Shown here: positions 8,896-52,347 of the stretch, piece by piece
Layout of the letters: every line of letters begins with the position of its first letter
How positions within the stretch are numbered: the first letter of the stretch is position 1
NCBI GenBank assembly: GCA_903844665.1
Contig: CAIMUS010000288.1
Span: 1-52,759, forward strand
Source: an uncultured Pseudomonadota bacterium
Lineage (GTDB): Bacteria; Pseudomonadota; Gammaproteobacteria; Competibacterales; Competibacteraceae
DNA: 52,759 bases
Direction: 5' to 3'
Made by a program: the position numbers and the translations under genes
Notes under the pieces: generated by a model
What the model saw: only the letters and a program-made list of their open reading frames with translations
What the model was told of the DNA's origin: nothing
The model's database searches: none

Positions 8896-8905
8896 CACCA
8901 CCGCC

Positions 8906-9778: not shown

Positions 9779-9839
9779 GGCTATCTCCCCCCACCCCAGC
9801 CCTCTTTACAAGGCCGGGTATAGGTATAAAGTTAACAGG

Positions 9840-10065: not shown

Positions 10066-10101
10066 AAGATCTGACGGCAAGGACAGATGGAAACAGGACG
10101 A

Positions 10102-10473: not shown

Positions 10474-10500
10474 CGTTCTCGTCTCTCCAAACGTGATTGC

Positions 10501-10882
10501 GGAAATACAACGCGGTCAGCTTTCCCATGGCTGGATCTACCGCCTCGACGTCGTCCCGACGGATACCGGTATGCAGGGTGCGGACCCCGCAGGAAATATC
10601 GAAACCTACCCCTCCGGCGGATACGACGCCTCCTGCCGCCGGGTCGAAAGCGGCCACCCCGCCGATCGGAAAGCCATAACCCCAGTGAGCATCGGGCATG
10701 GCGAAAGCGGCCTCGACGATGCCGGGCAGGGTGGCGACATGGGTGAGCTGTTCATAGACTTTTTCATCCATGGCCTGGATCAAAGCCTCGTCGGCATAGA
10801 TAACGGCCGGAACGCGCATCTTCCCGTGCGGCGGGATTTCCCATCTAAAATCCCCGGCTCGGCTAAACAGTGAGGTGTCTAT
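10501..10882 (-). pseudogene. rtcB: rtcB remnant: 5' part of an RNA 3'-phosphate ligase gene
   Basis: About 125 codons match the N-terminal third of RtcB, the GTP-dependent tRNA-splicing/RNA-repair ligase. Visible motifs are [30 protein letters not shown] and [18 protein letters not shown], the latter two carrying the metal-binding Asp and Cys. Homology stops near 10501, just before the hpf start, and the remaining two thirds (several histidine ligands and the guanylylated histidine) are absent. A good Shine-Dalgarno (AGGGGAGG) lies 7 nt before an ATA at 10882, where an ATG would be expected, suggesting that the start was also lost. A longer open frame reaches 11035, but that extension has no homology. 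Confidence 0.75.
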
Positions 10883-10980
10883 AGCGGCGCCTCCCCTCTG
10901 GTTGTCGCTCAGACATCCACCACGCATTGGGCCAGCCAACCGCCATCCGGCAACTGGCGGACGCCCAGCGACAGCCTGTC

Positions 10981-11376
10981 CTAGAGGCTCGCATGCCCCG
11001 GCTGGGCATACTGGCGCTCGTACAGGGTCTGACACCCGATGCAGCGCGCGGCCGCCGGATTGGCCTCCAGCCGCGGCGGCGGGATAGCGACACCGCAGTC
11101 TATGCAGATCCCGTAATTGCCTGCCTCGATCCGGTTCTGGGCGGCTTCGACCTGACGGATTTCCTTTACATGTCGGTCGATATCGGCCAGATTGAGATCG
11201 AGCAGCAAATCGGCAACCGATTCTTCCTCGGTATCGTGGACGGTGGTCGCGAGTTGCTGATAATCAGGATCCTCCGAGTTGAGCAATTCCTGGCGGATTT
11301 CCTCGCGCAGTTGCCTGAAGCGTTCCTCCAGGCTCTGCTTGCAATGCTGGAGCTGGTGTGCAGACAGGGTTGACAT
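10981..11376 (-). CDS. DksA/TraR-family zinc-finger protein
   Basis: The 131-residue protein has a long N-terminal coiled-coil ([18 protein letters not shown], then [20 protein letters not shown]) and a C-terminal C4 zinc finger (CIDCG ... CIGCQ). This is the architecture of DksA/TraR regulators, which enter the RNA polymerase secondary channel. The start at ATG 11376 ([10 protein letters not shown]) is preferred over the longer frame to 11424 because the extra 16 residues are not conserved-looking. It heads the former rtcB-hpf group, suggesting a link to stress or ribosome maintenance. Confidence 0.85.
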
Positions 11377-11628
11377 GGATGCTTCTCTTGGCCTCCTGGA
11401 GTGTAAGGGTGAAGTCCTGGCCACAAGGTTCGAGAACTATTGTACTCTAAATTACAGGCGCTGGTTTTCTTCCCGCCGGGCGGAAGAGGCGCGCGCGCAT
11501 TCTTTGTCGGAATCGGCAAAGGTTTGATCCGGCAAAAATTATTGTCCGGCCGCTGAAATTGTAGTCGGTACGGACAGGCAGTATCCGCCACGAATCGGGT
11601 GAGTAGCTTGCGAACGGCAGCCTGGCTG

Positions 11629-12411
11629 TCAGCGTCCCTTGAATTGGGCGGTACGCCTTTCGACAAACGCCTGCACCCCTTCTTTGACATCCTCGCTCTG
11701 CATGATGGGCATCAAGTCGGGGAGCAACCGGGCCAACGCCGCCTTGTCGCCTTGTATCCGGGCGATGCGGGCCGATTTCAGCGTGGCCTGTACCCCCAAC
11801 GGCGCCTGCGCGGCGACGGTGGCGGCGATGGCCAGGGCCCGTTCCAGTTGACTGCCCGGCTCGGCGACTTCCTGCACCAGTCCCAGCCGCAGGGCCTCGG
11901 CGGCGGGAATCTCGTCCGCGGTCAGCAGGTAACGCATGGCGTTACCCCAGCCGATCTCCTGGATCATCCGTACCGTGCCGCCGCCCACCGGATAGATGCC
12001 ACGCCTGATTTCGATCTGGCCCAGACGGAGATCGGCGGCGGCGACCCGGATATCGGTGGCGAGCAGCAGCTCGATGCCGATCGTGAAGCAGATCCCCTGT
12101 ACTGCCATGACCAGGGGTTTGCTCAGGCGATTGTCTTCGTCCAGACCCAGCGGCTCGATCGCACCTTCCGGCAATTCGGGAAAACGGCCCTGGGCGAAGC
12201 AGGGAGCCCATTGGACCAGATCCAGACCGGCGGTAAAGTGATCGCCCTGGGCGAACAGGACCCCGCAGCGCAACTCGGGATCGCGCTGCAACTGGCCATA
12301 GGCGGCGCCCAGATCGCGGTACATATCCAGATCGAAGGCATTACGTTTTTCCGGCCGGTTCAGGCCGATCAGCAGGATGTGATCACGCGCTTCGACAGTG
12401 ATTTTACTCAT
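11629..12411 (-). CDS. Enoyl-CoA hydratase/isomerase (crotonase) family protein
   Basis: The 260-residue protein has the crotonase fold: LNRPEKRNAFDLDMY near the N-terminus, the oxyanion-hole segment GDHFTAGLDLVQW, the second signature KPLVMAVQGICFTIGIELLLATDIRVAA, then LGQIEIRRGIYPVGGGTVRM. In classic hydratases two glutamates lie in the last two blocks. Here the first is in GIELLLA and the second position reads PVGGG, so the exact reaction (hydratase, isomerase or other acyl-CoA chemistry) is uncertain. It is a single gene divergent from menA. Confidence 0.85.
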   Translation of the reverse strand: MSKITVEARDHILLIGLNRPEKRNAFDLDMYRDLGAAYGQLQRDPELRCGVLFAQGDHFTAGLDLVQWAPCFAQGRFPELPEGAIEPLGLDEDNRLSKPLVMAVQGICFTIGIELLLATDIRVAAADLRLGQIEIRRGIYPVGGGTVRMIQEIGWGNAMRYLLTADEIPAAEALRLGLVQEVAEPGSQLERALAIAATVAAQAPLGVQATLKSARIARIQGDKAALARLLPDLMPIMQSEDVKEGVQAFVERRTAQFKGR

Positions 12412-28284: not shown

Positions 28285-29076
28285 ATGTCCGTTAACTCGA
28301 CAGTTCTAGACTTTTTCAGCCAGTGCGTCAATGCAATCCACGAAGGCAAACTTGTCCATCGCGAGAGCAGGCTGGACAAAGAATTTCATTTTCAGAATTG
28401 GGTTCGCGCTCGCTTTGAAGAAGCGGGCTTTAATTATGAAGTGGGTGGACGCAATAGCTATCCTGATTTTCGGATGGTTCACTTCGCTGAAGGTTACGAA
28501 GTCAAAGGATTGGCCTATCCAGGCCGTGAAGTCAGCTATGACAGCAATAGTCAGGTTCCCTCCGGTAACCACAATGGACGGACTATCTTCTATATTTTTG
28601 GACGTTATCCCGCTATACCCGATGGTGATACTTATCCAGTGTTGGATCTGGTGATTTGCCATGGTGATTTCCTGAACGCCGACCATGATTATGTTCATAA
28701 GAACAAAAGCATCAAGGGGTTTGGCAGCTACGGGGATATCATGATCCGGGATCGAAAGATGTATGTTGCCTTGACACCTTTCGGTCTGGTTTCCGGAGTG
28801 GCGCATACTCAGACGCTAATTCTTCCTGAAGATTTTCCGGTAACGGTCGGTTTTCAGCAAATCGGCATACTTATCCGTAAAGAAGCGGATAATTTGATTA
28901 TAGGCTACCATTTTGATCTCAGGCACAATACCTTGATACCTGAAACAGCCCCTAATCCATTTGCTGGCAAAGAACACGTTTTCCACGCATGGCGCTTGCA
29001 AGACGCATCCGTTGAACCCGTTATGATGCGTGATAATATTTCAGACGGCAAAATCGATGATGGCAAACAGGGATAA
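28285..29076 (+). CDS. Putative PD-(D/E)XK restriction endonuclease
   Basis: The 263-residue protein has a plausible PD-(D/E)XK core: HRESRLDKEFHFQNWVRARFEEAG (helix with Glu), then YPDFRMVHFAEGYEVKG, giving Pro60-Asp61, Glu72-x-Lys74. I do not recognise a named type II family. The assignment as restriction enzyme rests on this core plus its overlap with the methyltransferase gene: its stop (29076) lies inside the methyltransferase frame. Composition is nearer 47-50% GC, lower than the backbone. It starts 37 nt after the pyrC-argG remnant. Recognition site is unknown. Confidence 0.65.
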   Translation: MSVNSTVLDFFSQCVNAIHEGKLVHRESRLDKEFHFQNWVRARFEEAGFNYEVGGRNSYPDFRMVHFAEGYEVKGLAYPGREVSYDSNSQVPSGNHNGRTIFYIFGRYPAIPDGDTYPVLDLVICHGDFLNADHDYVHKNKSIKGFGSYGDIMIRDRKMYVALTPFGLVSGVAHTQTLILPEDFPVTVGFQQIGILIRKEADNLIIGYHFDLRHNTLIPETAPNPFAGKEHVFHAWRLQDASVEPVMMRDNISDGKIDDGKQG

Positions 29077-31264
29077 AAACATCTCTCAGCTTAACCCACT
29101 GCGACTAATTGAAACAGACGCATTCCCATTCGAATTTCTATCGGTAATCGCAGAAAAGGAGAGCTGGCGTAAGGAGATCTATCGACCGGTCTATCACGTT
29201 CATAAATGGTGGGCCAAGCGGCTTGGCTCCGTCTTCCGGGGCATTATACTGGGCTGCCTTCTGCCGGAGGATGGCAACCTGGAAGAGACTTTCTATCACA
29301 AGCAGGATTTCTCAGGAGTCTCTATCTTCGACCCTTTCATGGGCAGTGGCACTACAGTCGGCGAGGCGCATAAGCTAGGCTGCATTGCCTTGGGGCGTGA
29401 CATCAATTCTGTAGCTTGCGAAAGCGTGCGTGTCGCACTGGGTCCGCTTGACCGCAACCGCTTGCAAAAGGCCTTTTTGCAACTCGCCGCTACGGTTGGC
29501 GTGCGCATTAGGGATCTGTACCAATCTATGGATGAGCATGGGCGGTATTGTGACGCCCTGTACTATTTTTGGGTCAAACAAATAAAATGTCCGCATTGTG
29601 CTGCCGGTGTAGACCTCTTTCCCACCCGAATCATCGCGCGTAACGCCTACCCCGACCGCAAACCCGAAATTCAAGTCTGTTGTCCTCGTTGCGGTGATCT
29701 TTTCCCGGCACTGAATCACGATAAGCACGTACACTGCCGTTCCTGTCAACTGGAATTTGATCCGCACGTTGGGCCTGCCTCTGGCACTAAAGCAACCTGT
29801 TCCGTCTGTACTCATACTTTTTCGATTGCCGAGGCGGTGCGCGCTTCTGGCAAACCGCCTGTACACCGGCTCTACGGTAAACTCTTATTGACATCGGAAG
29901 GAAAAAAGCGCTATCTGCCTGCTACACCGACTGATATCCAGGCTTATAATGAATGTTCCGCGCTCCTTCAGGACGAATTAAGACGAGGTGCTATTCGCCT
30001 GCCTGAGACTGTATTAACAGATGGATTTAATACTCGCCAAGCGCTCGGCTATAATTATTGTAACTGGCGTGATTTCTTCAATGATCGGCAATTGCTTGTC
30101 CTGGGTTGGTTGCAGGAGGCAATAGCCGATTTATCGGATGTTCCGACAAGAGATGCTGTACTCTTGCTCTTCTCGGGTGTGCTGGAGTTCAATAATTTAT
30201 TTGCTTCCTACAAAGGCGAAGGTACTGGCGCCGTCCGGCACATGTTCGCCCATCACATTCTCAAACCGGAACGTACCCCTATCGAAGCCAACGTATGGGG
30301 TACGCCGAAAAGTTCCGGGTCATTCTCAAATCTGTTCAAAACCCGTTTGATGCGTGCTGTGGCTTATCGTAACGCTCCTTTCGAGGTAGCATTCAACAGT
30401 TCGACCAAGCATCAACTTGCCAGTGCCCCTTTTTCCGGCTGTGTGGAAAACGCTTGGCCGACACAAAGGGATTTCAAGCCGCGTGGTATCTATCTTTCAT
30501 GTGGCAGTTCCGATGAAACCGGCCTGCCGGATGGTTGTGTCGATTTTATTGTCACAGACCCGCCGTTTTTCGATAACGTCCATTACTCTGAATTGGCGGA
30601 TTTTTTCCACGCCTGGCAGCGCCTGCATCCAAGGGGCTTTATTAATGACACACCAACCACCCGCCATCCATACGAGGTACAGGATACCGATGCGAACGCG
30701 TTCGCCGCCAAGCTTCTTGCTGTTTTCAGTGAGTGCCATCGGGTGTTGAAAGACAATGGTTTACTGGTGTTTACCTATCACCATTCGCGGGCGGAAGGCT
30801 GGATATCTCTGCTGGAAGCCGTCGTTGGGGCGGGTTTTTCGGTTATTAACACCCATCCTGTTAAATCGGAGATGTCTGTGGCTGTGCCCAAATCTCAAGC
30901 TAAAGAACCGATTCAACTCGATGTAATACTGGTTTGTAAAAAAAGGGAACATGATTCTCGTACTGCCTTGGAGCCATCGCAGGCTCTTGCCGAAGCAACA
31001 CAACAGTCTACCCAAAAACTGTGCCGGCTTACAGGCGCTGGTCTAAAACTTTCGCGGAATGATCGGCGGATTGTTATTTTCAGCCAGTTTATTGCCGCTA
31101 TGGGTCCAGTGGTTTCAGCCGCGAGAGCAATTGATACTTTGCTGCAACAACAATCAAAGCTGGAGGAAATAGCTGAACACGTCCTTGTTGGGACAGGCAC
31201 AATGGAAGATTCAGAAAACATGCCCGAATCTATTGACAAGCAACAGATGGAGTTCACTTTTTGA
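29057..31264 (+). CDS. Zinc-ribbon-containing DNA methyltransferase (DUF1156/COG1743-like)
   Basis: The roughly 735-residue protein has the SAM motif I FDPFMGSGTTVGEA (numbering from ATG 29060, about 90-103) preceded by HVHKWWAKRLGSVFRGIIL, and motif IV TDPPFFDNVHYSEL (about 499-512), a DPPY variant typical of amino-methyltransferases. The insert between them carries zinc-ribbon cysteines CPHC (177), CPRC (208), CRSC (226) and CSVC (247). The order motif I then IV suggests a beta-like class. It overlaps the nuclease gene by about 20 nt (starts ATG 29057 or 29060; GTG 29030 is also open). Together they form a two-gene restriction-modification system. Confidence 0.82.
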   Translation: MMANRDKNISQLNPLRLIETDAFPFEFLSVIAEKESWRKEIYRPVYHVHKWWAKRLGSVFRGIILGCLLPEDGNLEETFYHKQDFSGVSIFDPFMGSGTTVGEAHKLGCIALGRDINSVACESVRVALGPLDRNRLQKAFLQLAATVGVRIRDLYQSMDEHGRYCDALYYFWVKQIKCPHCAAGVDLFPTRIIARNAYPDRKPEIQVCCPRCGDLFPALNHDKHVHCRSCQLEFDPHVGPASGTKATCSVCTHTFSIAEAVRASGKPPVHRLYGKLLLTSEGKKRYLPATPTDIQAYNECSALLQDELRRGAIRLPETVLTDGFNTRQALGYNYCNWRDFFNDRQLLVLGWLQEAIADLSDVPTRDAVLLLFSGVLEFNNLFASYKGEGTGAVRHMFAHHILKPERTPIEANVWGTPKSSGSFSNLFKTRLMRAVAYRNAPFEVAFNSSTKHQLASAPFSGCVENAWPTQRDFKPRGIYLSCGSSDETGLPDGCVDFIVTDPPFFDNVHYSELADFFHAWQRLHPRGFINDTPTTRHPYEVQDTDANAFAAKLLAVFSECHRVLKDNGLLVFTYHHSRAEGWISLLEAVVGAGFSVINTHPVKSEMSVAVPKSQAKEPIQLDVILVCKKREHDSRTALEPSQALAEATQQSTQKLCRLTGAGLKLSRNDRRIVIFSQFIAAMGPVVSAARAIDTLLQQQSKLEEIAEHVLVGTGTMEDSENMPESIDKQQMEFTF

Positions 31265-31271
31265 TTAATTT

Positions 31272-31511
31272 TTATGAGAGGGGACTAATAACCGTTGCTC
31301 CGTGACTTGGCGCCTGTCTTTCCCGGCCGATGGCCTGGAGAATGGCCAGATTCTCCGGCGATAGCAGTTTCACCAACGCTTCCGCCGAAACACCCCCCGT
31401 GTCTGCCTGTAACGCGGTTTCCTCAGAATCGAACCAGTATTTCGGAGCGCCTTTCGCTACCGCCGGGTCGCGAATGACCTGCTGCGTCCAGGCCATAAAT
31501 TCGCCAACAGT
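31272..31511 (-). pseudogene. Fragment of a predicted transcriptional regulator/antitoxin
   Basis: Read on the minus strand, TVGEFMAWTQQVIRDPAVAKG, then KYWFDSEETALQ and LVKLLSPENLAILQAIGRER, resembles the start and first helices of small winged-helix regulators of the HVO_A0114/antitoxin type. The remaining DNA-binding helices are missing; the frame ends at PLS. I therefore treat it as a truncated remnant convergent with the methyltransferase gene. Confidence 0.45.
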
Positions 31512-31526
31512 ACCAATCTTAATAAG

Positions 31527-31697
31527 TCATGGGGGAGCCCTTTCTCGTTCATGACTTGTTTGACTTCCTGCCAGAAGGTCCAGATCATCATTTCGGCCAG
31601 CCGGAGGAACCTGGATTACGCTTCGCAAGCTCCGCTCCATCCAGGCTACGCCGGCTATCCAGCGACCATCCTCTTCCCGTTCAATCTCGATAATCAT
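31527..31697 (-). pseudogene. HicB-like antitoxin start interrupted by a dispersed repeat
   Basis: The frame begins MIIEIEREEDGRWIA, the usual opening of HicB-type antitoxins. It then runs into the 52-bp repeat at 31601-31652 and continues as unrelated sequence to a stop after 56 codons. The normal HicB core is absent. Confidence 0.5.
31601..31652. repeat. 52-bp dispersed repeat, inverted copy of 39065-39116
   Basis: In the reverse direction it reads GGCGTAGCCTGGATGGAGCG and ends GGTTCCTCCGG. It matches 39065-39116 at about 48 of 52 positions. It interrupts the HicB-like frame. Confidence 0.8.
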
Positions 31698-31721
31698 CGC
31701 TTCTTATCTCAACGTGCGAGT

Positions 31722-31783
31722 GCCTAACGACTAAGCTCAGCGGCGCGCGCCTTTGGCGCGTCCGCTGGAGCGCCGTGTTGGGC
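31722..31783 (-). other. attC recombination site 1
   Basis: On the minus strand this 62-bp imperfect palindrome starts GCCCAAC (fits RYYYAAC) and ends GTTAGGC (fits GTTRRRY). The inner boxes CGCTCCAGCGGACGCGCC and CGCGCGCCGCTGAGCTTAGTC can fold on each other. This is the architecture of an integron cassette recombination site. It lies 33 nt after the stop of the ApeA-like gene, at the position expected for that cassette's own attC. Confidence 0.85.
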
Positions 31784-31816
31784 TTTGGCCATCTCTGCAA
31801 TAGTTGCAAAATGATT

Positions 31817-33325
31817 TTACTCCTCCTTCTCAGAATCTGTTGCAACGCGGATCGAATAAAATGCGGACTCGCCGACTTGCCCCGGTTTGGGGCTTACCGG
31901 ATTGTCCGAATTCCAGCGGAAATTATGAATACGGTGATTCCTTGCAAATAGCTGGGCGACTTTGTTGGAGGCGAAGCCTAATTCAATCAAAAGGCATGCA
32001 GCAATCAGATGCATCAGCGTCGTGCTGACGAAATAAAGGTCCGAGTGTGTAGCGGCTTTTTTTTGTTGCTTGCCATCCCAGTGAGTGAAGTAGTTTCTCG
32101 TATGTTTTACTGTCGTCGCAAAGCCTACTTTATCGGCGACAAGTAACGATGTTGTCGGCTCTAACGCTTCCAGCAGTTCTTCAAGGCGGTTTTGTAGCGT
32201 CGGGGAATTAGACCACGTTAGCTTTTCGCGGAGCCATTCCCTTTCACTTTCGGGTACCGCGTCAATAATGCGTCTGGTTCTATCTCTCCATTCATCCCGG
32301 GGCAGGATGGCGTTGTTGAAACGTGACCTATGATATAGCTCGGCCGCTTGCGCTAAGCTTAAAAATTCTTCTTCGAGATACTGTTCTCTAATGCTTGTCA
32401 CCGAGGAGTATAGGTTACAAACCATAGGAATATCTTTGATTATGCGGAACCAGTTGTTCACAAGTGGCCCCAAACTACCCCCCTCGATGTCTGTTTTTGC
32501 GAACAGCGTATCCTCAACAATCAGTTCTTTGTCATTTTCCTTTGTTTTTCTTCCCTTGAAGTAAACTCTGCATTCTTTGGGTTTCGTTGTCTCGCGTTCG
32601 TCAAAAACGCTAAATCGGGATATATCAATGGGCCTATCCATTGCGAGAGAGAACAAATCGCGCATGGGGCGAATAATATCAAGCCACCACTCAATGACCG
32701 ATTTTGGAGCGTTCGCAGCAATATCGAGATACGCCATCGGAGTTAATGTAACGGGCGTTAAAATACCTCCCTGAGTGTTGAGCCCAAACAATATCTTGAA
32801 TTCTAAGTCATTAGCCAAAAAGGTCTCTTCTGGGAGCGAGCGATACTTGTAAACTAGCTCATTTCCAATGGGCTTCCCCTTATCGTCCTTCCAGAATGTG
32901 ATGGTACGATCAACGATAATCTGCCTTAGCCACTCCGAAAAATGCTGAAACTGCAACCGAATTCGGCGGAAGCGGGCTTCGTCTTCTGACTCAAACAGTG
33001 CATCAAATATCAAGAAGTCGGCTTGGTTTTTCTGGAAGTTAATGAGAGTCGCGGGGCCGAGTTCGGTCCTTCCGCAGATGATCGGAAAGAACTCATTAAA
33101 GCTACGGTCTGTGTAGATGCCGTTTTCTGGCTTCGTGAGGAAGCCCAGATTATCGAATAGCTTTAGACAGGGACGTTCATCTTTTGAAACAAGTAGTACG
33201 CCGGGATGATGTGGCTGATCTCTTCCCGGCACCCACCATTTGCCTAAAACATCTATCTCCTCGGTTTCACCTAGAGGCATATAGTAGTCCTGCAGTAGAG
33301 AACTCCCATAACGATCACTTTTCAC
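31817..33325 (-). CDS. apeA: ApeA-type HEPN anti-phage defence protein
   Basis: The 502-residue protein has an ApeA N-terminal-like domain (VLGKWWVPG, then HHPGVLLV, FPIICGRTELGPATLI, RIRLQFQHFSEWL) and a C-terminal HEPN domain. The HEPN part runs from FLSLAQAAELYHRSRF to the RNase motif RNYFTH (Arg410-x4-His415). ApeA proteins stop phage by abortive infection, probably through HEPN RNase activity (family knowledge). The start is GTG 33325; the next Met is residue 16. It is flanked by attC sites 1 and 2, so it forms a 1.7-kb integron cassette with one gene. Confidence 0.8.
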   Translation of the reverse strand: MKSDRYGSSLLQDYYMPLGETEEIDVLGKWWVPGRDQPHHPGVLLVSKDERPCLKLFDNLGFLTKPENGIYTDRSFNEFFPIICGRTELGPATLINFQKNQADFLIFDALFESEDEARFRRIRLQFQHFSEWLRQIIVDRTITFWKDDKGKPIGNELVYKYRSLPEETFLANDLEFKILFGLNTQGGILTPVTLTPMAYLDIAANAPKSVIEWWLDIIRPMRDLFSLAMDRPIDISRFSVFDERETTKPKECRVYFKGRKTKENDKELIVEDTLFAKTDIEGGSLGPLVNNWFRIIKDIPMVCNLYSSVTSIREQYLEEEFLSLAQAAELYHRSRFNNAILPRDEWRDRTRRIIDAVPESEREWLREKLTWSNSPTLQNRLEELLEALEPTTSLLVADKVGFATTVKHTRNYFTHWDGKQQKKAATHSDLYFVSTTLMHLIAACLLIELGFASNKVAQLFARNHRIHNFRWNSDNPVSPKPGQVGESAFYSIRVATDSEKEE

Positions 33326-43111: not shown

Positions 43112-43666
43112 TCAACGGCGCAAGCGGATGTCGACCTCACGCTCGACGTATTTCCACTCCTCCGTTGCGCGCAGCGTTACGACCAGCTCTTCAAATAACG
43201 CAGCGTGTTCGGGCCCGTACTCAAACCAGGTGAGGAAATCAAACGGCTCGCCCAAGTCGCGGCTGTGGTATAGCCGACGGGCAATGGCGGGAAGGTATTT
43301 CAGGCTCGCGGCAATGTGGTGCGATCTGGTTTCGAAGATTGTGCGACGTTCGTCCTGCGCCAGATCCCACCACGCATCCGACTTACGGATAGGAATCAGT
43401 GCGGCGTTTGTCGCCCCAACGCGGCCCAAGGCTTCCTGAACGGCAACCAGCTGCTCCTTCTCCAGCCGTTCTACGTAGCGCTGGTGCCCGGCGGTACCTC
43501 TCAAGGTCCACGTGATCGGGGTGGCGCTCGGGGCTGGTGTGTAGGCTGAGGAAACAGAGAGTCGCGCCGCGGATGGCAATAATGGGCCGACCACTGCATC
43601 AATACGCTCGATGTGCCACGCACCCGCGTCGCCGGCTTGAAACACGACCGGAATAATGGGCGCCAT
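43112..43666 (-). CDS. cld: Chlorite dismutase (short, lineage II type)
   Basis: The 184-residue protein strongly resembles the short dimeric chlorite dismutase of Nitrobacter winogradskyi: WTLRGTAGHQRYVERLEKEQ, AALIPIRKSDAWWDL, DERRTIFETRSHHIAASLKY, LYHSRDLGEPFDFLTWFEY and EWKYVEREVDIRLRR. The heme-ligand histidine is inferred as His117 and the distal arginine, needed for chlorite breakdown, as Arg130, thirteen residues later. HemQ enzymes have Gln at that position in Listeria, so this is a true Cld. It turns chlorite into chloride and oxygen. No signal peptide is visible. AGGAGG lies 4 nt before ATG 43666 and only 1 nt before TTG 43669, so ATG is chosen. Confidence 0.9.
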   Translation of the reverse strand: MAPIIPVVFQAGDAGAWHIERIDAVVGPLLPSAARLSVSSAYTPAPSATPITWTLRGTAGHQRYVERLEKEQLVAVQEALGRVGATNAALIPIRKSDAWWDLAQDERRTIFETRSHHIAASLKYLPAIARRLYHSRDLGEPFDFLTWFEYGPEHAALFEELVVTLRATEEWKYVEREVDIRLRR

Positions 43667-43669
43667 CAA

Positions 43670-44125
43670 TCCTCCTGTACTGGTTCAGCGTGAAATGAAC
43701 AAAAGGGGGTCTGGTTATAGTTCACAAAGGCCAAGATAAACCAGCGCTCCTGAACTGAGAGGGCTGGCAGGAAAAACGAGCTTAACTGTTGCCGCCCGAG
43801 GCAACATAACCATTGTGACACGGGCGGTAACGAGCGCCAAGGGGTCATGGCGACAGGGGCCCTTGGGGAGAAGCATGCTGCCTTGGCCACCGCGGTGGTA
43901 GGCTCAGGCTGGGAAGTACCCAGGAGAGCAGCCCATCGCATTTCTTCCCCACCCAGTGGTCGTTCGGACTGGAACTTAGGCTTGTAAAGCCGAGCAATCG
44001 CTGCCCTCGAAGGACGCGGGTTGCGGGCGTTGAACAGGACGATACATCGATCCGGACGCTGGCGCGAGTGTGCATCTTGACGAGCGTATCCATTGCGAAC
44101 CGATTCACACAGTCATTTGACTGGG
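43670..44125. other. Spacer between cld and the torD-like gene
   Basis: This stretch carries two minus-strand open frames (43666-43941 and 43845-44129) with no recognisable product, low-complexity composition and no good ribosome binding site. It may be decayed mobile DNA, but I see no transposase motif. A cld promoter could lie here. The cld gene is thus on the same strand as the reductase genes but not tightly coupled. Confidence 0.45.
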
Positions 44126-44851
44126 TCACGAACGAACTTCCATTTCATAAGTCGGGTCCGTTGGGCGACCAACACCCGGATATGCGAACTCCGCCTGGAC
44201 AAGTCTGAGATAGGTTCGCTCGGCGGCGACAAATTGGAGCAGCAATTGCCCCACGGCCTCGTAAAAACGGTCGCTGGTCGCTTCGATCAAGCCGCTGGCG
44301 AATCCGGAGGCCCATTGCCCGAGGTGCTCGCGAAAGAACTTCTCCTGCGCCGCCCGGCAGATTCGAGAGTGCTGCCACTGCTTCTGCACCACGGCGAGTG
44401 ACTGCTTGGCGGTCAAGAATTTCATGAAGTCGAGTTCGATGCCGATGTAATCTGGCCGTTCGCACGCGCCGGCCGCAACACGAACGCCGAAGGTCGCATA
44501 AAAGGCAGCGATGTCGGAGATGATGTGCACCGCTCGAAACGGATCGCCGCCGACGTGATCCGCCTCGTAATGCGGGCACATGAGCGCGGCGCCGTACAGA
44601 CGCGTGTACTCCACCAGCAGTCTATCGCGGGTCGCCCTCTCGCTGTCTCTCGAAGCCAGCGCCACTGTCTGGCTTGCGTCGATCATTCGCCGATGGGGGA
44701 GCGGAGCGCCATCGAACGCCGCTGCGACCGTTAGGCCCAACGATCCATCGCATATACCCCGAACCAACGCGTCGCTTGGCGACGACAACGCCTGGGCAAA
44801 AAAGGAATACAGTATGGCGCGGCAGCCCGCGACTCGTCCTTTCGACTTCAT
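44126..44851 (-). CDS. TorD/NarJ-like molybdoenzyme chaperone
   Basis: The 241-residue helical protein has the TorD-family pattern: AILYSFFAQALSSPSDALV at the start, LLVEYTRLYGAALMCPHYEAD, FRAVHIISDIAAFYATFGV and ERPDYIGIELDFMKFLTAKQ, where the family usually has ERPDHI and E-L-x-F-M. Such chaperones hold the catalytic subunit until cofactor insertion and Tat export. It follows the iron-sulfur subunit gene by 13 nt, matching the D gene of chlorate, perchlorate and related reductase operons. Confidence 0.88.
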   Translation of the reverse strand: MKSKGRVAGCRAILYSFFAQALSSPSDALVRGICDGSLGLTVAAAFDGAPLPHRRMIDASQTVALASRDSERATRDRLLVEYTRLYGAALMCPHYEADHVGGDPFRAVHIISDIAAFYATFGVRVAAGACERPDYIGIELDFMKFLTAKQSLAVVQKQWQHSRICRAAQEKFFREHLGQWASGFASGLIEATSDRFYEAVGQLLLQFVAAERTYLRLVQAEFAYPGVGRPTDPTYEMEVRS

Positions 44852-44864
44852 GCAATCATGCGGC

Positions 44865-46034
44865 TTAGGTGATATTCAGGTGGATAGACGGACGGATGTA
44901 AACTGGCTCATGGATCGGGACCCGGATAATTTCCTTGCCGTCCTCGCCGAAACCGATCGCGTCGTTGTCCGTGATCTTGTAGCTCCAGATTACCAGCTGG
45001 CTCGATCCGAACAACTGTAGAAGTCCGAGCAGCTCGGGCGACGGCTTGGTGTAGCGCTCGATCGCTTCCTCCACTCTTGGGCCGAACATTTGCTTCAGGT
45101 AGGGACGCGGCGCCCAGCGCGGCGGAATGTAATAGATGTTTGGCTCCGTGCCGAACTGCGGATAGAGGGGCAGCGCGACTTTTTCCTTGTGCACGAGGAA
45201 GTGCACTGGACTGTTCGGGTCATCCACCCATCCTTGCATGCGGATCTTTCCAACGCACGAGGAGTTGCAGCGCGAGATCATAGCCCGACCCTCACTGAGC
45301 GGATCCTTCCCTTCGAGTCTTGGATAGCACGCGATGCACTTCTCGGACGTGTGGCTCTGCGTGTTGTACATTGACTTCTTGTAAGGACACGCCTCCACGC
45401 ACGCGCGATAACCACGGCACCGGTGCTGATCAATCAGCACTACGCCATCGTCTTCGCGCTTGTAGATGGCCTTGTTCGGACAGGCGGCCAGACACAGAGG
45501 ATACGTGCAATGGTTGCAGATCCGCTGGAGATAGAAAAAGAATGTCTGATGCTCGGGCAACTCGGATCCCCGCGATGTGACCCCATCCACCATTGCGGGA
45601 TACTCGTTCGGCGTATCCTCGTTTATGTTCGGATAGCGCCATTCCTCTTCGGTCGGCAAATAACCCACCGCCACCTTGCCGCCCTCGCGGTCCTTGACGG
45701 CCTCGACGAGCGTCTCGCCGCGGTACACCCCGTACGGCGCCTTTTCGTCCTCCTTCTTTACTGCGTCCCAGCCGGGCTGCGGGCCGAGGGCCGCCAGTGT
45801 CTTCACATCCCAGCCCTGGGGATATCCGCCGAACGGCTTACTTTCAACGTTGTTCCACCACATCGCCTCCTGGCCCGGCGAATGCGTCCAAGTGCTCTTG
45901 CACGCCATCGAGCAGGTTTGGCACCCGATGCAGCGGTTGATGTTGTAGACCGCTGAGAACTGGCGCTTCGGACGCTTCTCCTTATAGGGAAACTCCATGT
46001 CGCGGTCGAGTTGCCAGTTATAGACTTTTGGCAT
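44865..46034 (-). CDS. Four-cluster iron-sulfur subunit, NxrB/NarH-like
   Basis: The 389-residue protein has four cysteine groups: CIGCQTCSMACKSTW, CNHCTYPLCLAACPNKAIY, CRGYRACVEACPYKKSMYN and CIACYPR followed by CNSSCVGKIRMQGW. It should carry electrons from the molybdenum subunit to the heme subunit. The segment EAMWWNNVESKPFGGYPQGWD is of the type seen in nitrite oxidoreductase beta subunits. The start is fixed by AAGGAG 6 nt before ATG 46034 (MPKVYNW); the longer frame to 46058 would overlap the small gene upstream. There is no own signal peptide, so it should be exported folded with the alpha subunit. Confidence 0.9.
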   Translation of the reverse strand: MPKVYNWQLDRDMEFPYKEKRPKRQFSAVYNINRCIGCQTCSMACKSTWTHSPGQEAMWWNNVESKPFGGYPQGWDVKTLAALGPQPGWDAVKKEDEKAPYGVYRGETLVEAVKDREGGKVAVGYLPTEEEWRYPNINEDTPNEYPAMVDGVTSRGSELPEHQTFFFYLQRICNHCTYPLCLAACPNKAIYKREDDGVVLIDQHRCRGYRACVEACPYKKSMYNTQSHTSEKCIACYPRLEGKDPLSEGRAMISRCNSSCVGKIRMQGWVDDPNSPVHFLVHKEKVALPLYPQFGTEPNIYYIPPRWAPRPYLKQMFGPRVEEAIERYTKPSPELLGLLQLFGSSQLVIWSYKITDNDAIGFGEDGKEIIRVPIHEPVYIRPSIHLNIT

Positions 46035-46054
46035 GACATTCTCCTTATGCCGGT

Positions 46055-46315
46055 TCAATTCGCCCGACGTTCGCTTCGAACCTGCTCCACCATCTCAACG
46101 ATGAAGGCTTCGCCTTTCGCGACGTATATGGCATGTGGTGCGCGGTAAAACGGATCGCGAAAGAGTTTCAAGACGGCATGGTTCGGATAGCCCATCCGTA
46201 GAAACTCATCGATGAACACCCTTCCCATGTCGATCATCATTTCATCGTTGGGCGCGTCGATCACCATCCCCACGAGTTCCATCGGGTCATCTTTCTCAAA
46301 TTCTTTTCCCACCAT
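46055..46315 (-). CDS. Small unknown protein encoded between the alpha and beta subunit genes
   Basis: The 86-residue protein contains DPMELVGMVIDAPNDEMMIDMGRVFIDEF, MGYPNHAVLKLFRDPFYRAPHAIY and EAFIVEMVEQVRSERR. It is mostly alpha-helical, has no cysteine and no signal peptide. I have only a vague memory of similar proteins beside oxidoreductase genes and no family name. AGGAG lies 7 nt before ATG 46315, which I prefer; another ATG at 46333 overlaps the alpha stop (TAATG). Its place suggests an assembly or maturation role for the complex. Confidence 0.7.
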   Translation of the reverse strand: MVGKEFEKDDPMELVGMVIDAPNDEMMIDMGRVFIDEFLRMGYPNHAVLKLFRDPFYRAPHAIYVAKGEAFIVEMVEQVRSERRAN

Positions 46316-46332
46316 GTCCGCGCTCCTGTCCA

Positions 46333-49300
46333 TTACGACTTCACGAAGGTGCCACGCAGATATAGCTTCATCACTTCACCTTCTTCACCAGGCATAAATC
46401 CCGACATCACTGGCGCCCATTTACCGCGGCCGTCGACGCCTCCGTTCTCGGCTTTGGTTATCTTGACCAGCACTTCCTTGTAAGGTGTGTTAACACCGTA
46501 GGCGTCATTCCCTTGTCCCTTTCCTATCGTCTGACCCACAGCATTTTTCCGCACGAGATCGTCGGACATCATCGTCGGTTGGCAGTATGGCCTTACACAG
46601 CTTTGTAGCGATCCACTGCGGAAGTTCGATTCGTAGCCGGTGTCGGTGAACGTCCGGCCGTCGCGCCGCGTTTTGTGCGAGTGCACGGTCTTCGGCGTGG
46701 CCGCCCAGGGAGCGTGGCGGGACATCACCATACCGGGGCGCATACGCGTGTCGTAACGCGCGCGCACCTTAAGACGGGCGGCCTCATATAGCGGATCGTC
46801 TGGCTTCCATCCCATGTAGGGCCGGTCATCACCGCTCGCATCCACCCACACGTAATCGCCGTTCTCGACCCCCAGCGCCTTCGCATCGTCCGGGTTGATC
46901 CGCAGCTCCGGTTCGCCCGGCCCGGGTGAGCGCTTGTCCGCGCGCAGGGGGTCGCCGAAGCTGCTAATCCAGAGTTCGTTCCACTCCGCCATTTGCCAGG
47001 ACGAGTGCGTGGAGTGACGCGTCTTGGTCGTGATGAACGAGAAACGGTAACCCTGCATCCACAGCGGATTCGGAGTCTGTTTCACCAACTCCCACTCCAT
47101 CACCGAGTTGCGCTTGGTCCGCGCGTCGACGCTCGTGGCGTCCACCGAGACGTCCGGCCGCTGCTCCGGCCGTAGTCCCTCTACGGGCCGGCAGACGGTA
47201 GCATTGGGCAAATAGGGGGTGTTCTCAATGGGCTCGCGATGGACGATAACATTCTCGCCCTCGCGTATGAACGTGTCTTCCTCTCGATAGAACTCCAAAC
47301 GACCGGTCTTGTTATAGAACGGCACGCTTTCGTGAATCTGCTCGTAGCCGGTCACTCGCGGGTACGTGCGGAAGTTCATCAGAACGGACTTACCAGACTT
47401 GAGTATCTCCTCGCAGTTGTACCCCTTGAGCGTGGACGACGCGTCCATAATACGCTGTATGTAAAATTCTGACTTGCCGTCGAAGATATACTTATAGTAT
47501 GCCTCACATCGCTTGTCGTCCAGCATAACGCCAAGTTTACGCGCGACACCCGCGACGATCTCGCTGTCCATCTTGCTGTCGTAAATGGGTTTGAGACCGC
47601 CTTTCCAAATACTGAAGAATGGATTGGATGCCGACCCGGTGATGTCCGGCAGCGTCGTCTCTAGCCAACTTGGAACTGGCAGCGAAATATCTGAGTATTC
47701 GCATGTCAGCGTGTGCTCCCAGTCGTTGTTGATCATCAGTTCGACTTTAGGTAGCTCATGCTTCAGCATGTTATAAAGCCACGGAGCGTTGTTAAGCATA
47801 TTGGTATTGGCTGTCCACACCATCTTCGTCGGTGTTGGCATGTGTGTCTTCCCAGTGGCCCACGTCGGACCGCCATTCAACCAGAAGATCGGATGCTCCT
47901 CGGTGAAGCACCGTCTGATCTTCGGCTTCGGTTCATTGGAGTGAAAGGGATCTTCGGCGGTGTATGCAGAGACCCCATCCATCGTGTTCACCTTGTAGTT
48001 GCCCGCCCAGGTGCCCGGCCCGGCGCCGAATTCACCGATGTTGCCGGTTAACGCGCAGAGCAAGATCGCTGCACGACCTTTCAAGTCGGCATGGTAGTAG
48101 TGATTGACTCCTTCGCCCGAGTGAATCGCGAACGGTTTTATGGTCGCGACGTCATTGGCCAGCCGGCGGATCAACTCGATTGGCGTAGACGTGATCTCGG
48201 AGACGCGCTCCGGGGTGTAGTAAGCGAGCACGTCGCGCTGGATGCTAAACCCCGTGCGGCATCGGATGCTCTTCCCGTCGTTCATGCGGATGTCGAACTG
48301 GCCTTCGAGCACTGGGTCAACGCCCTTCGCGACGAACTTCTCCCCAACCTCTTCGCGGGTGATCGCCACAGGTGCGTTCGTCTTCGCATCCCACACGACG
48401 TAGTCGCCCCATTCGGCCCTAAGTTCGGGCGTTATCGACTGTGGCGACAAGCTGTAGCCGGTGTTCGGCGCATTTTTGTAGTCCGGAAAGACGTCACTCG
48501 CGCGGAGCTTCTTGAGCGTGTCCATTCGCACCAGAAGCGGCAGATCGGAGAACTTTTTCAGGAACGCCGCATCGTGACGACCACTCTCGACCACTAGGTG
48601 CGCCACGCCAAGCAGCAGCGCCGTATCTGAACCCGGCCGAACTGGGATCCAGTAATCGGACTTTGAGCTCGTGGGATTGTAGTCCGGACCGATAGACACG
48701 ATGGTCGACTGACGTTCAATGCCTTCGACCATCCAGTGGACGTCGGCCATCTTGTGCTCGACCATGTTCTTGCCGAGCATGACGATCAGCTTGCTATGCT
48801 TCAGGTCGGACATGTCGATGTCGAAGGTGTTCACGCCGGTGACCTGTGGGAATCCTGGATCCATGTCCCCCAGAAATTCATATGTCGTCCAGTGACGTGC
48901 ACCGATTGCCTTTGCCTCTTCGACCTTGCGGACGTGGTGATCGACGATCGCCAGCATATTGGCGAACCGGACCAGCGAACCTTGTTTCGCGACCGGCCCG
49001 CAGGCGGTAATTGCGCTGCGCATTTTGATAGTCTGCGTCCCGACACCTCCCAGCTTTTCGATCATTGCCGCGGGATAGCCCTGACTTGCGAGGCGCTGCG
49101 CGCCCCTCTCGCCGCCATAGGCGTCGACGATGTTGAGGATCGCCTTCGCGATCAGCGTGAACACTTCGTCCCAGCTCACGCGGACGCGCTCGTCCTCGCC
49201 ACGAGTGGCGAAATACTTTTGGACGTAGTCGCCTTCACGCGGAAAGCCGGCCTCGACCCATTCCAGCCACCGACGGCGAACGGTCGGAAATTTAACCCGG

Positions 49301-49722
49301 TGACTCCCATAGACACGCTGTAGCAGCGTATACCCCTTCTGGCAACCCCGGGGTCCCCAGTTGGCCGATGCCTTGTTACCGTAGAGATCCGTGGTGTCGC
49401 CGAGGTCGTACGACTGCTCGATCCGCACCGGCATACCGGAACGAACAAACGCCGTCAAACGGCAGTTATGCGTGTCGTTCGGCAAGCATAGAAACTTGAA
49501 GGTTGAGTCGTACTCATATTGGTCGCGATAGATCTTCTCCCACGCGCGGTCCGGATAGAATTCCAGCGGGTTGTCGATGTTATCCAACGCTTCAAGGAGA
49601 CGCATTCCGCCTTGCGCGAAGCAGTTGCCGCTCAATACTGCGATGCCGCTTAACGTCAAGAATTGCCGCCTACTGATGCCGGCTCCTCGTTTTGCTCGGT
49701 CCTTCATGCCCCCCCCCAACAT
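46333..49722 (-). CDS. Tat-exported type II DMSO-reductase-family molybdoenzyme, NxrA-like
   Basis: The 1129-residue catalytic subunit starts with a Tat signal (SRRQFLTLSGIAVLSG). The first iron-sulfur site reads CLPNDTHNC then GPRGC, so ligands would be Cys79, Asp83, Cys87 and Cys127, where NarG has His-Cys-Cys-Cys. The inferred molybdenum-ligand aspartate is in DMSDLKHSKLIVMLGKN, the type II pattern. Further cofactor motifs are DYWIPVRPGSDTALLLG and TWAGNYKVNTMDG. The size and motifs most resemble nitrite oxidoreductases of Nitrospira and anammox type; perchlorate and chlorate reductases are relatives. Starts 49722 and 49707 (MKDRAKR) are both possible, with a run of nine G between them. 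The complex should work in the periplasm. Confidence 0.88.
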   Translation of the reverse strand: MLGGGMKDRAKRGAGISRRQFLTLSGIAVLSGNCFAQGGMRLLEALDNIDNPLEFYPDRAWEKIYRDQYEYDSTFKFLCLPNDTHNCRLTAFVRSGMPVRIEQSYDLGDTTDLYGNKASANWGPRGCQKGYTLLQRVYGSHRVKFPTVRRRWLEWVEAGFPREGDYVQKYFATRGEDERVRVSWDEVFTLIAKAILNIVDAYGGERGAQRLASQGYPAAMIEKLGGVGTQTIKMRSAITACGPVAKQGSLVRFANMLAIVDHHVRKVEEAKAIGARHWTTYEFLGDMDPGFPQVTGVNTFDIDMSDLKHSKLIVMLGKNMVEHKMADVHWMVEGIERQSTIVSIGPDYNPTSSKSDYWIPVRPGSDTALLLGVAHLVVESGRHDAAFLKKFSDLPLLVRMDTLKKLRASDVFPDYKNAPNTGYSLSPQSITPELRAEWGDYVVWDAKTNAPVAITREEVGEKFVAKGVDPVLEGQFDIRMNDGKSIRCRTGFSIQRDVLAYYTPERVSEITSTPIELIRRLANDVATIKPFAIHSGEGVNHYYHADLKGRAAILLCALTGNIGEFGAGPGTWAGNYKVNTMDGVSAYTAEDPFHSNEPKPKIRRCFTEEHPIFWLNGGPTWATGKTHMPTPTKMVWTANTNMLNNAPWLYNMLKHELPKVELMINNDWEHTLTCEYSDISLPVPSWLETTLPDITGSASNPFFSIWKGGLKPIYDSKMDSEIVAGVARKLGVMLDDKRCEAYYKYIFDGKSEFYIQRIMDASSTLKGYNCEEILKSGKSVLMNFRTYPRVTGYEQIHESVPFYNKTGRLEFYREEDTFIREGENVIVHREPIENTPYLPNATVCRPVEGLRPEQRPDVSVDATSVDARTKRNSVMEWELVKQTPNPLWMQGYRFSFITTKTRHSTHSSWQMAEWNELWISSFGDPLRADKRSPGPGEPELRINPDDAKALGVENGDYVWVDASGDDRPYMGWKPDDPLYEAARLKVRARYDTRMRPGMVMSRHAPWAATPKTVHSHKTRRDGRTFTDTGYESNFRSGSLQSCVRPYCQPTMMSDDLVRKNAVGQTIGKGQGNDAYGVNTPYKEVLVKITKAENGGVDGRGKWAPVMSGFMPGEEGEVMKLYLRGTFVKS

Positions 49723-49758
49723 GCCTTGTTCGATCTTTGTTTACTCGCTAAAACCACT

Positions 49759-51267
49759 CTACTTGCCTCCAATGTTCAGCCGATACCAGCTCGAAACTGC
49801 TTTCTGCCCGGCGCGATCGCGGTTGGCGCCATCCCACACGGCCAGCGCGAGCTTAATAGCCGAGCGCCGTGCCAGTTCGACCTCGTTACCGTCGAAGTCT
49901 CGGGACAGTACGACGTACCACACCCCGTCGCGCCAGATGCCGAAGCCCTTCGTGTGCTGTGTCTGGACCGGAGTCTGCGTCGCGAAGCCGACCGCGGTAA
50001 ACTCCTCGACTGAACTAGATCGCTCCGGATAAACATAAGGATTCTTCGCGTCGAACGCTGATAGCACGGGGAAAGGATATGGGACGTTGATCGCTGCGGG
50101 TGGTGCGGTTGGCGCGTGCATCTTGCGCTCGTCGACGTCCCGTTGCCAGTCAGCCTTCCAATGCCAGATCTGTACTGGAGCGGTTCGACTCCCCATGCCG
50201 AGAAATGTGTCGTTCGAACCCGAAATCCATTGTATCGCGACGCCATCTGCAAACGCTTCGACGCTTGAGGTACGGTCGTTGCGGGTTGCGTCGGCCCATT
50301 CGAGCCGGAACGCAATTGTTCGCTCGTCGTGCAGCGACCTGACAGTCAGCGGAGGCGGCGGGGATCGATGCGAGATCAGCGGAAAGACCGGCACGCGCGT
50401 GACTGGCGTCGTCTTCCATCGGGCCGAAAACGGATCATTGGCCAGCAGCCGTCCCGTGACGCGAGCTGAGACGATGACATAGGAGTCGTCGGTCGGCGCT
50501 ATACTGTTTTTGTTATCTCTCTCAATGAGCGAGGCGACATAAGCCGCCAAATGCCAGCGATCCTGGTCCGATGCGCTCGTAAAAGCGGGCATCGGCGTGC
50601 CGTCCATCCCGTTGGAGACGCGGAGATAGATATCGCGCACGCTCTCGCCACCCTTGTAGGGCTCCCGCACAAGATCCCTGGGCCGGATCGGCGAATGCCG
50701 GTCGTCGAATAGCGAGTCGGCTATCGGTCCGTCGCCGCGTCCTTGATCGCCGTGGCACGTCGCGCATCCCAGCTGCTTGTAGACGACCTTGCCAGCCGCG
50801 ATGGATGACCGCTTGTCAGTCCACGGCGGCGGTACATCGAACGTGGAAGCACGCGGCTTGTCCGCTAGCAACAACGACGGCGATAAGCCCTTGACATAGT
50901 CGATCACCGCGTTCCGCTCTTCGACAGTCAAAAATCGGAAGCCGGGCATCGGCGAGCCGGGAATGCCACGGATGAGCACCGACATGAGATCGGCGTCCGA
51001 CGGCGGCGTCTGCGCGGGGGTGGATCGCAGACGAAACTGCTGGTTTACGAAATCCCGCGGGCGCGGAAACAGCAGCGCGGCTGCAGGGCCGTCGCCGTTT
51101 CCCCGTTCGCCATGACAACCCAGGCAGTGCGTTCGATACGTCGTCTCACCAAGCGACGCCGGCTCGCTGATGACCGGGGCTGCGCCGCGGACGTCGTCGC
51201 CCGCAGCGAGCCCCCCACCCGCCAGAAGGAACAAACAGCCGACTTGCCAAGCGGGGAGTCGAAACAT
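49759..51267 (-). CDS. Diheme cytochrome c fused to an ethylbenzene-dehydrogenase-type heme b domain
   Basis: The 502-residue protein has a Sec signal (GCLFLLAGGGLAAG). Two class I cytochrome c domains follow: CLGCH (48-52) with Met in GSPMPGF, and CATCH (168-172) with Met in GTPMPAF. The C-terminal half resembles the gamma subunit of type II DMSO-reductase enzymes: FRLEWADATRND, FLGMGSRTAPVQIWHWKADWQ, GFGIWRDGVWYVVLSRDF and LAVWDGANRDRAGQKAVSSW. It would take electrons from the NxrB-like subunit by heme b and pass them through its own two hemes c. It ends 36 nt before the alpha start. Confidence 0.9.
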   Translation of the reverse strand: MFRLPAWQVGCLFLLAGGGLAAGDDVRGAAPVISEPASLGETTYRTHCLGCHGERGNGDGPAAALLFPRPRDFVNQQFRLRSTPAQTPPSDADLMSVLIRGIPGSPMPGFRFLTVEERNAVIDYVKGLSPSLLLADKPRASTFDVPPPWTDKRSSIAAGKVVYKQLGCATCHGDQGRGDGPIADSLFDDRHSPIRPRDLVREPYKGGESVRDIYLRVSNGMDGTPMPAFTSASDQDRWHLAAYVASLIERDNKNSIAPTDDSYVIVSARVTGRLLANDPFSARWKTTPVTRVPVFPLISHRSPPPPLTVRSLHDERTIAFRLEWADATRNDRTSSVEAFADGVAIQWISGSNDTFLGMGSRTAPVQIWHWKADWQRDVDERKMHAPTAPPAAINVPYPFPVLSAFDAKNPYVYPERSSSVEEFTAVGFATQTPVQTQHTKGFGIWRDGVWYVVLSRDFDGNEVELARRSAIKLALAVWDGANRDRAGQKAVSSWYRLNIGGK

Positions 51268-51279
51268 CGACGGGCCTGC

Positions 51280-52347
51280 TTACAGTGATTGCAGGAATGC
51301 GACTAAATCTTCCTTCTCGTCATCCGTTAGTCCCATAGCAAAACGCGTGTCGTAGAAGTTGACGACGTCGAGCAGCGTGGCCGCCGAGCCGTTGTGGAAA
51401 TAGGGAGCGCGCGCAGCCAGCGAGTGCAAGCTCGGCGCCTTCATGCGCCCGATGTGCTTCCAAATTCCGCTGATCAATCCTTTGCCCGGGTCGGTCGTTT
51501 TTACGAGTTCGCCGGTCACCTTGTTGCGGAACGTGTAGAGGGGTTCGTCCGGCATGCGGCGCGCTTCGGTCGTGATGCCCAAGTCAACCGGACCGGACTT
51601 CGAGTGGTTACCGCTGTTCGGTGTGTCGTGGCAGGTCGTGCAGGAGCCGACGAATTCCGGGACGCCCAGATCGTCGTTCACGCCCTTCACGCCGATCAAG
51701 TGGATCGGTCGGATGTTGAACAGGTCCTGTCCGCGAGACACCGACCCACGCGCCCCGTCCTTGCCATGCTGTGCGCCCTGAAGCGTCGACCATGCGTCGA
51801 AAACGTTGAACACGTGCGGGTCGAAGACCTTACCCGTCGGATCGCCGTTAGGGAACGGATCGTTGATGCCGATATAGAACGGCTCCGTGACGAGCGGCTC
51901 GGGTCCTCCAGTCGCACCTTTGGCATTCAGCTTCCCGGCGTCCTTGTCCCTGATCTGCGCGGAGAAGAGGCCGACTTCGAAAGTCACGATCTGCTGCTGC
52001 TCCTGCGCCGTGAGATGCAGTGCGGACTGGGCGTGGCCGGTCGTCGCGACGTCGGCTTGGTGCGCCAAGTCCTGGAGGATCGTCAGGCCGGGGAAGGTCT
52101 CGCGGCCGTCGATCATGATCGTCGCCTGGAAGCGCAGATTCGCAATGGGCGGCGGACGGCGGAACAACGAGAGCTCGCTCGCCGACGCAAAGTGATAGGG
52201 ATCGTCGACATCCACGAGGTCGAATTCCGAGACCGCCGGCATCGGAAGGCCAATGCGAATCACGCCGCGATTGAGCAGCATGCTGTAGGCCTCCCTACGC
52301 TTTTCCCGCGTGGAAACGTCGACATTCGGCGAGTTGCTGCCACTCGA
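51280..52347 (-). pseudogene. 5'-truncated MauG/CcpA-type cytochrome c protein
   Basis: From ATG 52281 the frame codes 333 residues of a diheme peroxidase-like protein: LLNRGVIRIGLPMPAVSEFD, FRRPPPIANLRFQATIMIDGRE, heme site CTTCH, and MKAPSLHSLAARAPYFHNG. Conserved family sequence continues upstream of that ATG: SNSPNVDVS and EKRREAYS fit the usual block before LLLNRG. It ends at a TAG (52348-52350). The first heme motif, the signal peptide and roughly 100-130 N-terminal residues are missing. The gene has been cut at the edge of the respiratory island. It lies 12 nt upstream of the cytochrome c/heme b gene. Confidence 0.82.

Follow-up and report, generated by a model that had tools for sequence, protein, structure and literature searches.

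A deep-branching nitrite oxidoreductase-like operon beside a chlorite dismutase gene in a gammaproteobacterial genome

The window considered here, i.e. the whole contig C288 (CAIMUS010000288.1, 52,759 nucleotides), stems from a metagenome-assembled genome (MAG; GCA_903844665.1, 4.88 Mb, 98.9% complete) of an uncultured member of the Competibacteraceae and encodes on its minus strand a molybdoenzyme operon resembling periplasmic nitrite oxidoreductase (NXR) next to a single gene for a chlorite dismutase (cld). Judged by its sequence, the catalytic alpha subunit belongs with two other metagenomic proteins to a separate deep lineage of the group formed by NXR and the related nitrate reductases (NAR). 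We favour, at roughly even chances, the reading that this would be a horizontally acquired enzyme interconverting nitrite and nitrate, whose incidentally formed, toxic chlorite may be removed by the chlorite dismutase (Cld).

Operon and catalytic subunit

All genes named in a preliminary description of this stretch proved to be open, intact minus-strand frames at or very near the coordinates first assigned (Table 1). From 51267 down to 44126, the genes for a gamma cytochrome, alpha, a 92-amino-acid protein, beta and a TorD-type chaperone follow each other, adjacent genes being separated or overlapping by no more than 36 bp, and cld lies downstream of torD on the same strand after a gap of 457 bp. 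Family searches gave consistent assignments for every operon gene except that of the 92-residue protein: alpha belongs to the Molybdopterin oxidoreductase family, beta carries 4Fe-4S dicluster domains for four clusters, gamma combines two cytochrome c domains with an EB_dh haem-b domain, and the torD product matches Nitrate_red_del as well as TIGR03482. Frames, families and coordinates thus bear out the layout proposed at the outset, an operon with cld just beyond it.

The closest solved relative of both alpha and beta is the NXR of Kuenenia (7b04); the alignment with NxrA covers almost the entire alpha. Sequence identity of alpha amounts to 47% with Kuenenia NxrA (aligned part), 31% with PcrA and 27% with ClrA. 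The Kuenenia structure revealed a substrate-binding Asn70, an Asp ligand of the molybdenum and an FS0 cluster of the 3Cys/1Asp type in an enzyme that works in both directions (PMC8387239). The corresponding residues are present in the window alpha, where Asp286, Asn82 and the FS0 ligands Cys79/Asp83/Cys87/Cys127 align with those described for this structure. Identities, ligands and best structural matches therefore agree with the initial assignment of alpha and beta to the periplasmic NXR type and to no known type of chlorate reductase. A known Clr or Pcr operon is ruled out by the low identity, the FS0 ligand type and the position in the tree.

Two pocket positions set the window lineage apart. 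Position 288, two residues past the molybdenum ligand Asp286, is Asp only in the three sequences of the window clade, compared with Ala in the crown NXRs and Pro in NAR-type rows, PcrA and NarG. Position 298 is Asn in the window and in its 72% identical relative, and Gln in 103 of the 108 rows; both Ala288 and Gln298 are invariant in the 34 crown rows of the alignment. Asp288 and Asn298 may conceivably influence the choice of substrate.

The phylogeny of alpha, recommended in the preliminary description, was reconstructed in two trees of 57 and 28 rows, with partial rows for Kuenenia and PcrA and with rows drawn from outside Nitrospira, Nitrotoga and Hydrogenobacter. In both, the window alpha forms one clade with the two metagenomic relatives (99–100% support). 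This clade (100/100) falls outside the NXR crown composed of Kuenenia, Anammoxibacter and Nitrospina (100/100) and, in the best tree, also outside the rows taken as the NAR/Nitrotoga type; PcrA and ClrA sit on branches of their own in the 57-row tree. In the beta tree, the window is likewise placed just outside the crown, with weaker support (94/86). Of the two relatives, the 72% identical alpha (L025) derives from a MAG of the Verrucomicrobiota, an assignment that is uncertain because the contig comprises only 3.5 kb. The other (L026) belongs to the Thaumarchaeota MAG nzgw5, in which the same-clade alpha, beta, gamma and torD genes (L026, positions 2498–12313) are followed by moeA/mobB/mobA-like genes (named by eye); the Cld gene of this MAG is located on another contig (L176).

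Chlorite dismutase

Translation of cld probably starts at ATG 43666, which is preceded by AGGAGG, although a TTG at 43669 had been listed. The best PDB match of the product is 3qpi, a Cld of the Nitrobacter winogradskyi type, with whose His114 and Arg127 the proximal His118 and the distal Arg131 align (numbering from TTG 43669). No signal peptide was recognized by inspection. By its sequence, the protein is a lineage-2 Cld of the short, cytoplasmic type, an ordinary member of this lineage that stands out only by its site beside the operon. A lineage-1 Cld would have been the expected companion of a classical (per)chlorate reductase; the short form and the lineage-2 best match show that alpha is not accompanied by one. 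Both cld and alpha are single-copy genes in the genome, and a search of 58 relatives turned up no cld. The chance that one given gene adjoins the operon on the same strand was estimated by us at about 2 × 10⁻⁴ (roughly 4,800 genes). As a separate observation, on the conjugative plasmid of Alisedimentitalea scapharcae (L143, positions 3119–8648) a gene of the Cld family lies immediately upstream of a type II molybdoenzyme operon whose alpha is 31% identical to that of the window; this operon likely encodes a chlorate reductase variant.

Host genome and acquisition

In an rpoB tree, from which two rows with very long branches, translated in a wrong frame, were disregarded, the genome groups with Escherichia coli and other Gammaproteobacteria beside relatives of its own family and order, as expected for the gammaproteobacterial host assumed earlier. 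The genome content, read by targeted searches and stretches, includes a form I RuBisCO with an adjoining small-subunit frame as well as one oxidase each of the aa3 and cbb3 types (typing done by eye on the basis of sequence and gene neighbourhood), and the host is probably an aerobic, CO2-fixing organism. A PF00384 search of the genome returned, besides alpha, NuoG and formate dehydrogenase-N only, i. e. no NarG, NapA or NasA, and a COX1-family search yielded the aa3 and cbb3 enzymes and no NorB. The menA gene, cited in the preliminary description as a sign of available menaquinone, is genuine (TIGR00751, 173 bits versus a cut-off of 102). It says little about the operon, however, because the latter encodes a c-type/haem-b gamma and no quinol-oxidizing membrane subunit.

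Neither alpha (38 family relatives searched) nor cld (36 searched) was found in the family, and both were therefore probably acquired horizontally. The operon (GC content 0.53–0.62, GC at third codon positions 0.66–0.80) resembles the rpoB gene of the host (0.60 and 0.78, respectively), and the acnA gene nearby has its closest counterpart in a genome of the same family (72%). In view of this kinship and the host-like composition, the reading that the contig is chiefly foreign contamination was rejected; an older transfer would be compatible with both. Inheritance of cld together with the acnA locus was likewise dismissed, as the acnA loci of five relatives contain neither cld nor nxr genes.

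Related operons

The gamma, alpha, small-protein, beta and torD set recurs in two gene orders in about 80 genomes from many phyla, including the Verrucomicrobiota, Elusimicrobia, Planctomycetota, Chloroflexota, Nitrospinota and Methylomirabilota, so that the clustering of these genes is far beyond chance. Other gammaproteobacteria also bear NXR-like alphas on crown-type or NAR-type branches; a periplasmic NXR-like enzyme is hence not unique within the class. In the regions flanking the related operons, no Cld was found. When 30 genomes were searched, almost all of which encode NXR-like alphas, a Cld was present only in nzgw5, on a contig other than that of the operon, and absent from the remaining 29, which include the MAG with the 72% identical alpha. 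A plasmid of Natronococcus occultus (L138, positions 6001–11604) encodes a 39–41% identical NXR/NAR-like alpha that is unannotated in the PLSDB table, and a scan of viral contigs with the alignment of the window clade produced one fragmentary, apparently unrelated match.

Proposed function and alternatives

The enzyme would be a soluble or membrane-associated periplasmic member of the NXR/NAR group of type II dimethyl sulfoxide (DMSO) reductases. Its alpha subunit is predicted to bind molybdenum-bis(molybdopterin guanine dinucleotide), to be loaded with this cofactor by TorD and to be exported together with beta by twin-arginine translocation (Tat). Electrons could then travel via FS0–FS4, the clusters of alpha and beta, first to the haem b and next to the two fused c-haems of gamma, and finally to the cytochrome c pool, a pathway that we infer from the ligand residues present. 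By analogy with the nearest characterized relatives, the reaction is most likely the interconversion of nitrite and nitrate. Our preference is for an energy-yielding oxidation of nitrite with cytochrome c as electron acceptor, which would be the most economical interpretation given the oxidases, the RuBisCO and the failure to detect another nitrogen-oxide reductase; nitrate reduction may come second. Chlorate, an analogue of nitrate, could be reduced to chlorite by a side activity of the same site, and chlorite entering the cell may be cleared by the cytoplasmic Cld encoded next to the operon.

The Tat motif of alpha and the Sec-type signal of gamma (both by inspection) suggest a periplasmic active site, and the lack of a signal on Cld a cytoplasmic location of this protein. 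In known (per)chlorate respiratory pathways, both the reductase and Cld are periplasmic (PMC9751292). The separation predicted here thus speaks against (per)chlorate respiration and favours a detoxification of incidental chlorite. Cld genes repeatedly found beside periplasmic NXR-like enzymes on soil contigs have been ascribed to co-metabolic (per)chlorate reduction by Barnum and Coates in 2022 (PMC9751292), and co-metabolic chlorate reduction also best explains the link to chlorite in the window. Of the three options left side by side in the preliminary description, incidental chlorite formation hence fits best, in view of the cytoplasmic lineage-2 Cld next to a Tat-exported enzyme and the precedent from soil, whereas a new (per)chlorate respiration is disfavoured. 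A nitrite oxidase is possible, yet unproven because alpha lies outside the NXR crown and carries changed residues beside the molybdenum ligand.

Several findings weigh against the favoured reading. A forced placement of alpha in the crown was rejected, if only marginally (p-AU 0.033, approximately unbiased test), and joining it to the NAR-type rows was not rejected (p-AU 0.18; tree without Nitrotoga and Hydrogenobacter). Asp288 and Asn298 depart from essentially all NXR, NAR and PcrA sequences, and the substrate may therefore differ. In addition, Cld would reside in the wrong compartment for direct contact with periplasmic chlorite, and its co-transcription with torD is unproven on account of the 457-bp gap, for which a promoter and terminator scan was uninformative.

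The first alternative, unlikely but to be taken seriously, is a periplasmic nitrate reductase for nitrate respiration or redox balancing that would draw its electrons from the cytochrome c pool, in the way suggested for the NAR-type neighbours. Beyond the tolerated grouping with the NAR type, the genome contains formate dehydrogenase-N, and since no NarG, NapA or NasA was detected, the operon would provide its sole nitrate reductase. Yet, a quinol-oxidizing membrane subunit is missing from the operon, the c-type gamma suits high-potential electrons, NorB was not among the COX1-family proteins, and the Pro288 of the NAR type is replaced.

Less probable again is that the enzyme oxidizes or reduces something else and that cld has no connection with it, having arrived on its own at the neighbouring site. 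This would be in line with the clade-specific changes at otherwise conserved pocket positions, the wide gap before cld, the flanks of related operons that lack it and the frequent occurrence of lineage-2 Cld on plasmids without any NXR-like enzyme. On the other hand, every core ligand of NXR/NAR is kept, cld and alpha occur among the family relatives only in this genome, side by side and on one strand, and the same pairing was independently seen in soil metagenomes (PMC9751292).

A more doubtful idea still is that the window clade constitutes a functional class of its own, the third within the periplasmic NXR/NAR superclade, in which a site re-tuned by Asp288 and Asn298 would turn over a chlorine or other oxyanion as physiological substrate instead of nitrite or nitrate, coupled to a cytoplasmic Cld. 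Least likely of all is that a specialized chlorate or perchlorate reductase arose independently among the NXR/NAR enzymes, with Cld catalysing the second respiratory step: the adjacency of cld, the two substitutions right at the molybdenum ligand, the repeated origin of chlorate reductases in the DMSO reductase family and the Cld of nzgw5, the nearest checkable genome of the clade, speak for it, but the different compartments, the 29 Cld-free genomes, the distance to PcrA and ClrA with their 3Cys/1His-type FS0 and the seemingly aerobic host stand against it.

Further genes of the window

The beta gene was listed with a TTG start at 46058, but ATG 46034 is the probable start as its relatives begin with MPKVYNW. 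In gamma, the haem-b domain matches NXR-C. The 92-residue protein displays near-invariant Asp-Pro, Glu, Phe, Pro and Gly positions and matched no Pfam family. An AlphaFold model is confident (mean pLDDT 86), and a PDB fold search with it gave nothing above background, which is no sign of a new fold. We would guess at a role in maturation or complex assembly. The cytochrome encoded upstream of gamma can be aligned with a 547-residue Skermanella homologue only from residue 176 of the latter onwards; it lacks about 175 N-terminal residues and with them the first haem. It looks like a truncated remnant, given this loss and the absence of any sequence resembling the lost part upstream; alternatively, a deletion joint or an assembly end effect may be responsible.

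Table 1. Genes of the operon and its immediate flanks in the window.
Feature	Position	Strand	Evidence
cld, lineage-2 chlorite dismutase, 184–185 aa	43112..43666	-	PF06778; PDB 3qpi, 246 bits
TorD-type chaperone (predicted Mo-cofactor insertion before Tat export)	44126..44851	-	PF02613, 63 bits; TIGR03482; position kept in related operons
NxrB/NarH-like beta, Fe-S cluster cysteine motifs	44865..46034	-	537 bits to 7b04_A; beta tree just outside NXR crown
92-aa conserved operon protein, predicted four-helix fold	46055..46333	-	found between the alpha and beta genes of about 60 NXR-like operons
NxrA/NarG-like catalytic alpha, Tat signal SRRQFL	46333..49722	-	1110 bits to 7b04_B; residues; trees; clade tests
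gamma with Sec signal, two c-haem motifs (CLGCH, CATCH) and NxrC/EbdC-like haem-b domain	49759..51267	-	family searches; haem-b ligands Met358/Lys489 kept
5'-truncated dihaem-peroxidase (MbnH/CCP-like) cytochrome c gene	51280..52347	-	TIGR04039; 12 bp upstream of gamma

Elsewhere in the window, positions 1–8300 are low in GC (40–47%; the remaining contig mostly 58–63%) and encode a tRNA-synthetase-like protein, a histidine kinase and a response-regulator GGDEF-EAL protein. A second low-GC island (29030–33325) harbors genes for a DNA methylase and for an ApeA-type HEPN antiphage protein. Scanning the window for Rfam families and tRNAs gave no match.

Significance

Nitrite oxidation outside the known nitrite-oxidizer clades would decide how many nitrifiers go unrecognized, and the pairing of NXR-like enzymes with Cld through incidental chlorate reduction how far (per)chlorate turnover extends beyond specialists. 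Both questions meet here in a single, nearly complete genome that encodes RuBisCO and aerobic oxidases and in which no competing nitrate reductase was detected. Through its natural substitutions next to the molybdenum ligand, the enzyme also offers two testable positions for substrate choice in the family. Together with the placement on a separate branch, the host genome and these substitutions are what is added to the work of Barnum and Coates.

Comparison with known systems

The window enzyme shares the molybdenum, FS0 and substrate-Asn ligands with the periplasmic NXRs of anammox bacteria, Nitrospina and Nitrospira, and with the Kuenenia type (NXR-ABC) also the four-cluster beta, a gamma with Met/Lys-ligated haem b and TorD, all clustered with alpha. 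In contrast to crown NXRs, alpha branches outside their clade and carries Asp288/Asn298 instead of Ala/Gln, and unlike Kuenenia NXR-C, the gamma subunit is fused to a dihaem cytochrome c. A Tat-exported alpha-beta unit, TorD and a soluble gamma are likewise known from the NXR of Candidatus Nitrotoga and its sister clade of periplasmic NAR (Kitzinger 2018, PMC6050957), and Nitrotoga also possesses a Cld gene (PMC6050957). Yet, the window alpha is only about 40–45% identical to the rows taken for this clade, which feature Pro288/Gln298 (rows without Nitrotoga NxrA). With ClrABDC and PcrABCD, the operon has the type II DMSO reductase architecture and the neighbouring cld in common, whereas FS0 is of the His type and Cld a large lineage-1 protein in those systems, as opposed to the small cytoplasmic lineage-2 form found here. 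The latter resembles the lineage-2 Cld of Nitrobacter winogradskyi (3qpi) and Klebsiella in its short form and its catalytic His and Arg. A parallel in layout is provided by the soil contigs (PMC9751292), on which a periplasmic NXR-like molybdoenzyme is also encoded beside a Cld that is cytoplasmic in some cases; unlike these contigs, the window belongs to a near-complete gammaproteobacterial MAG in which the metabolism of the host can be read.

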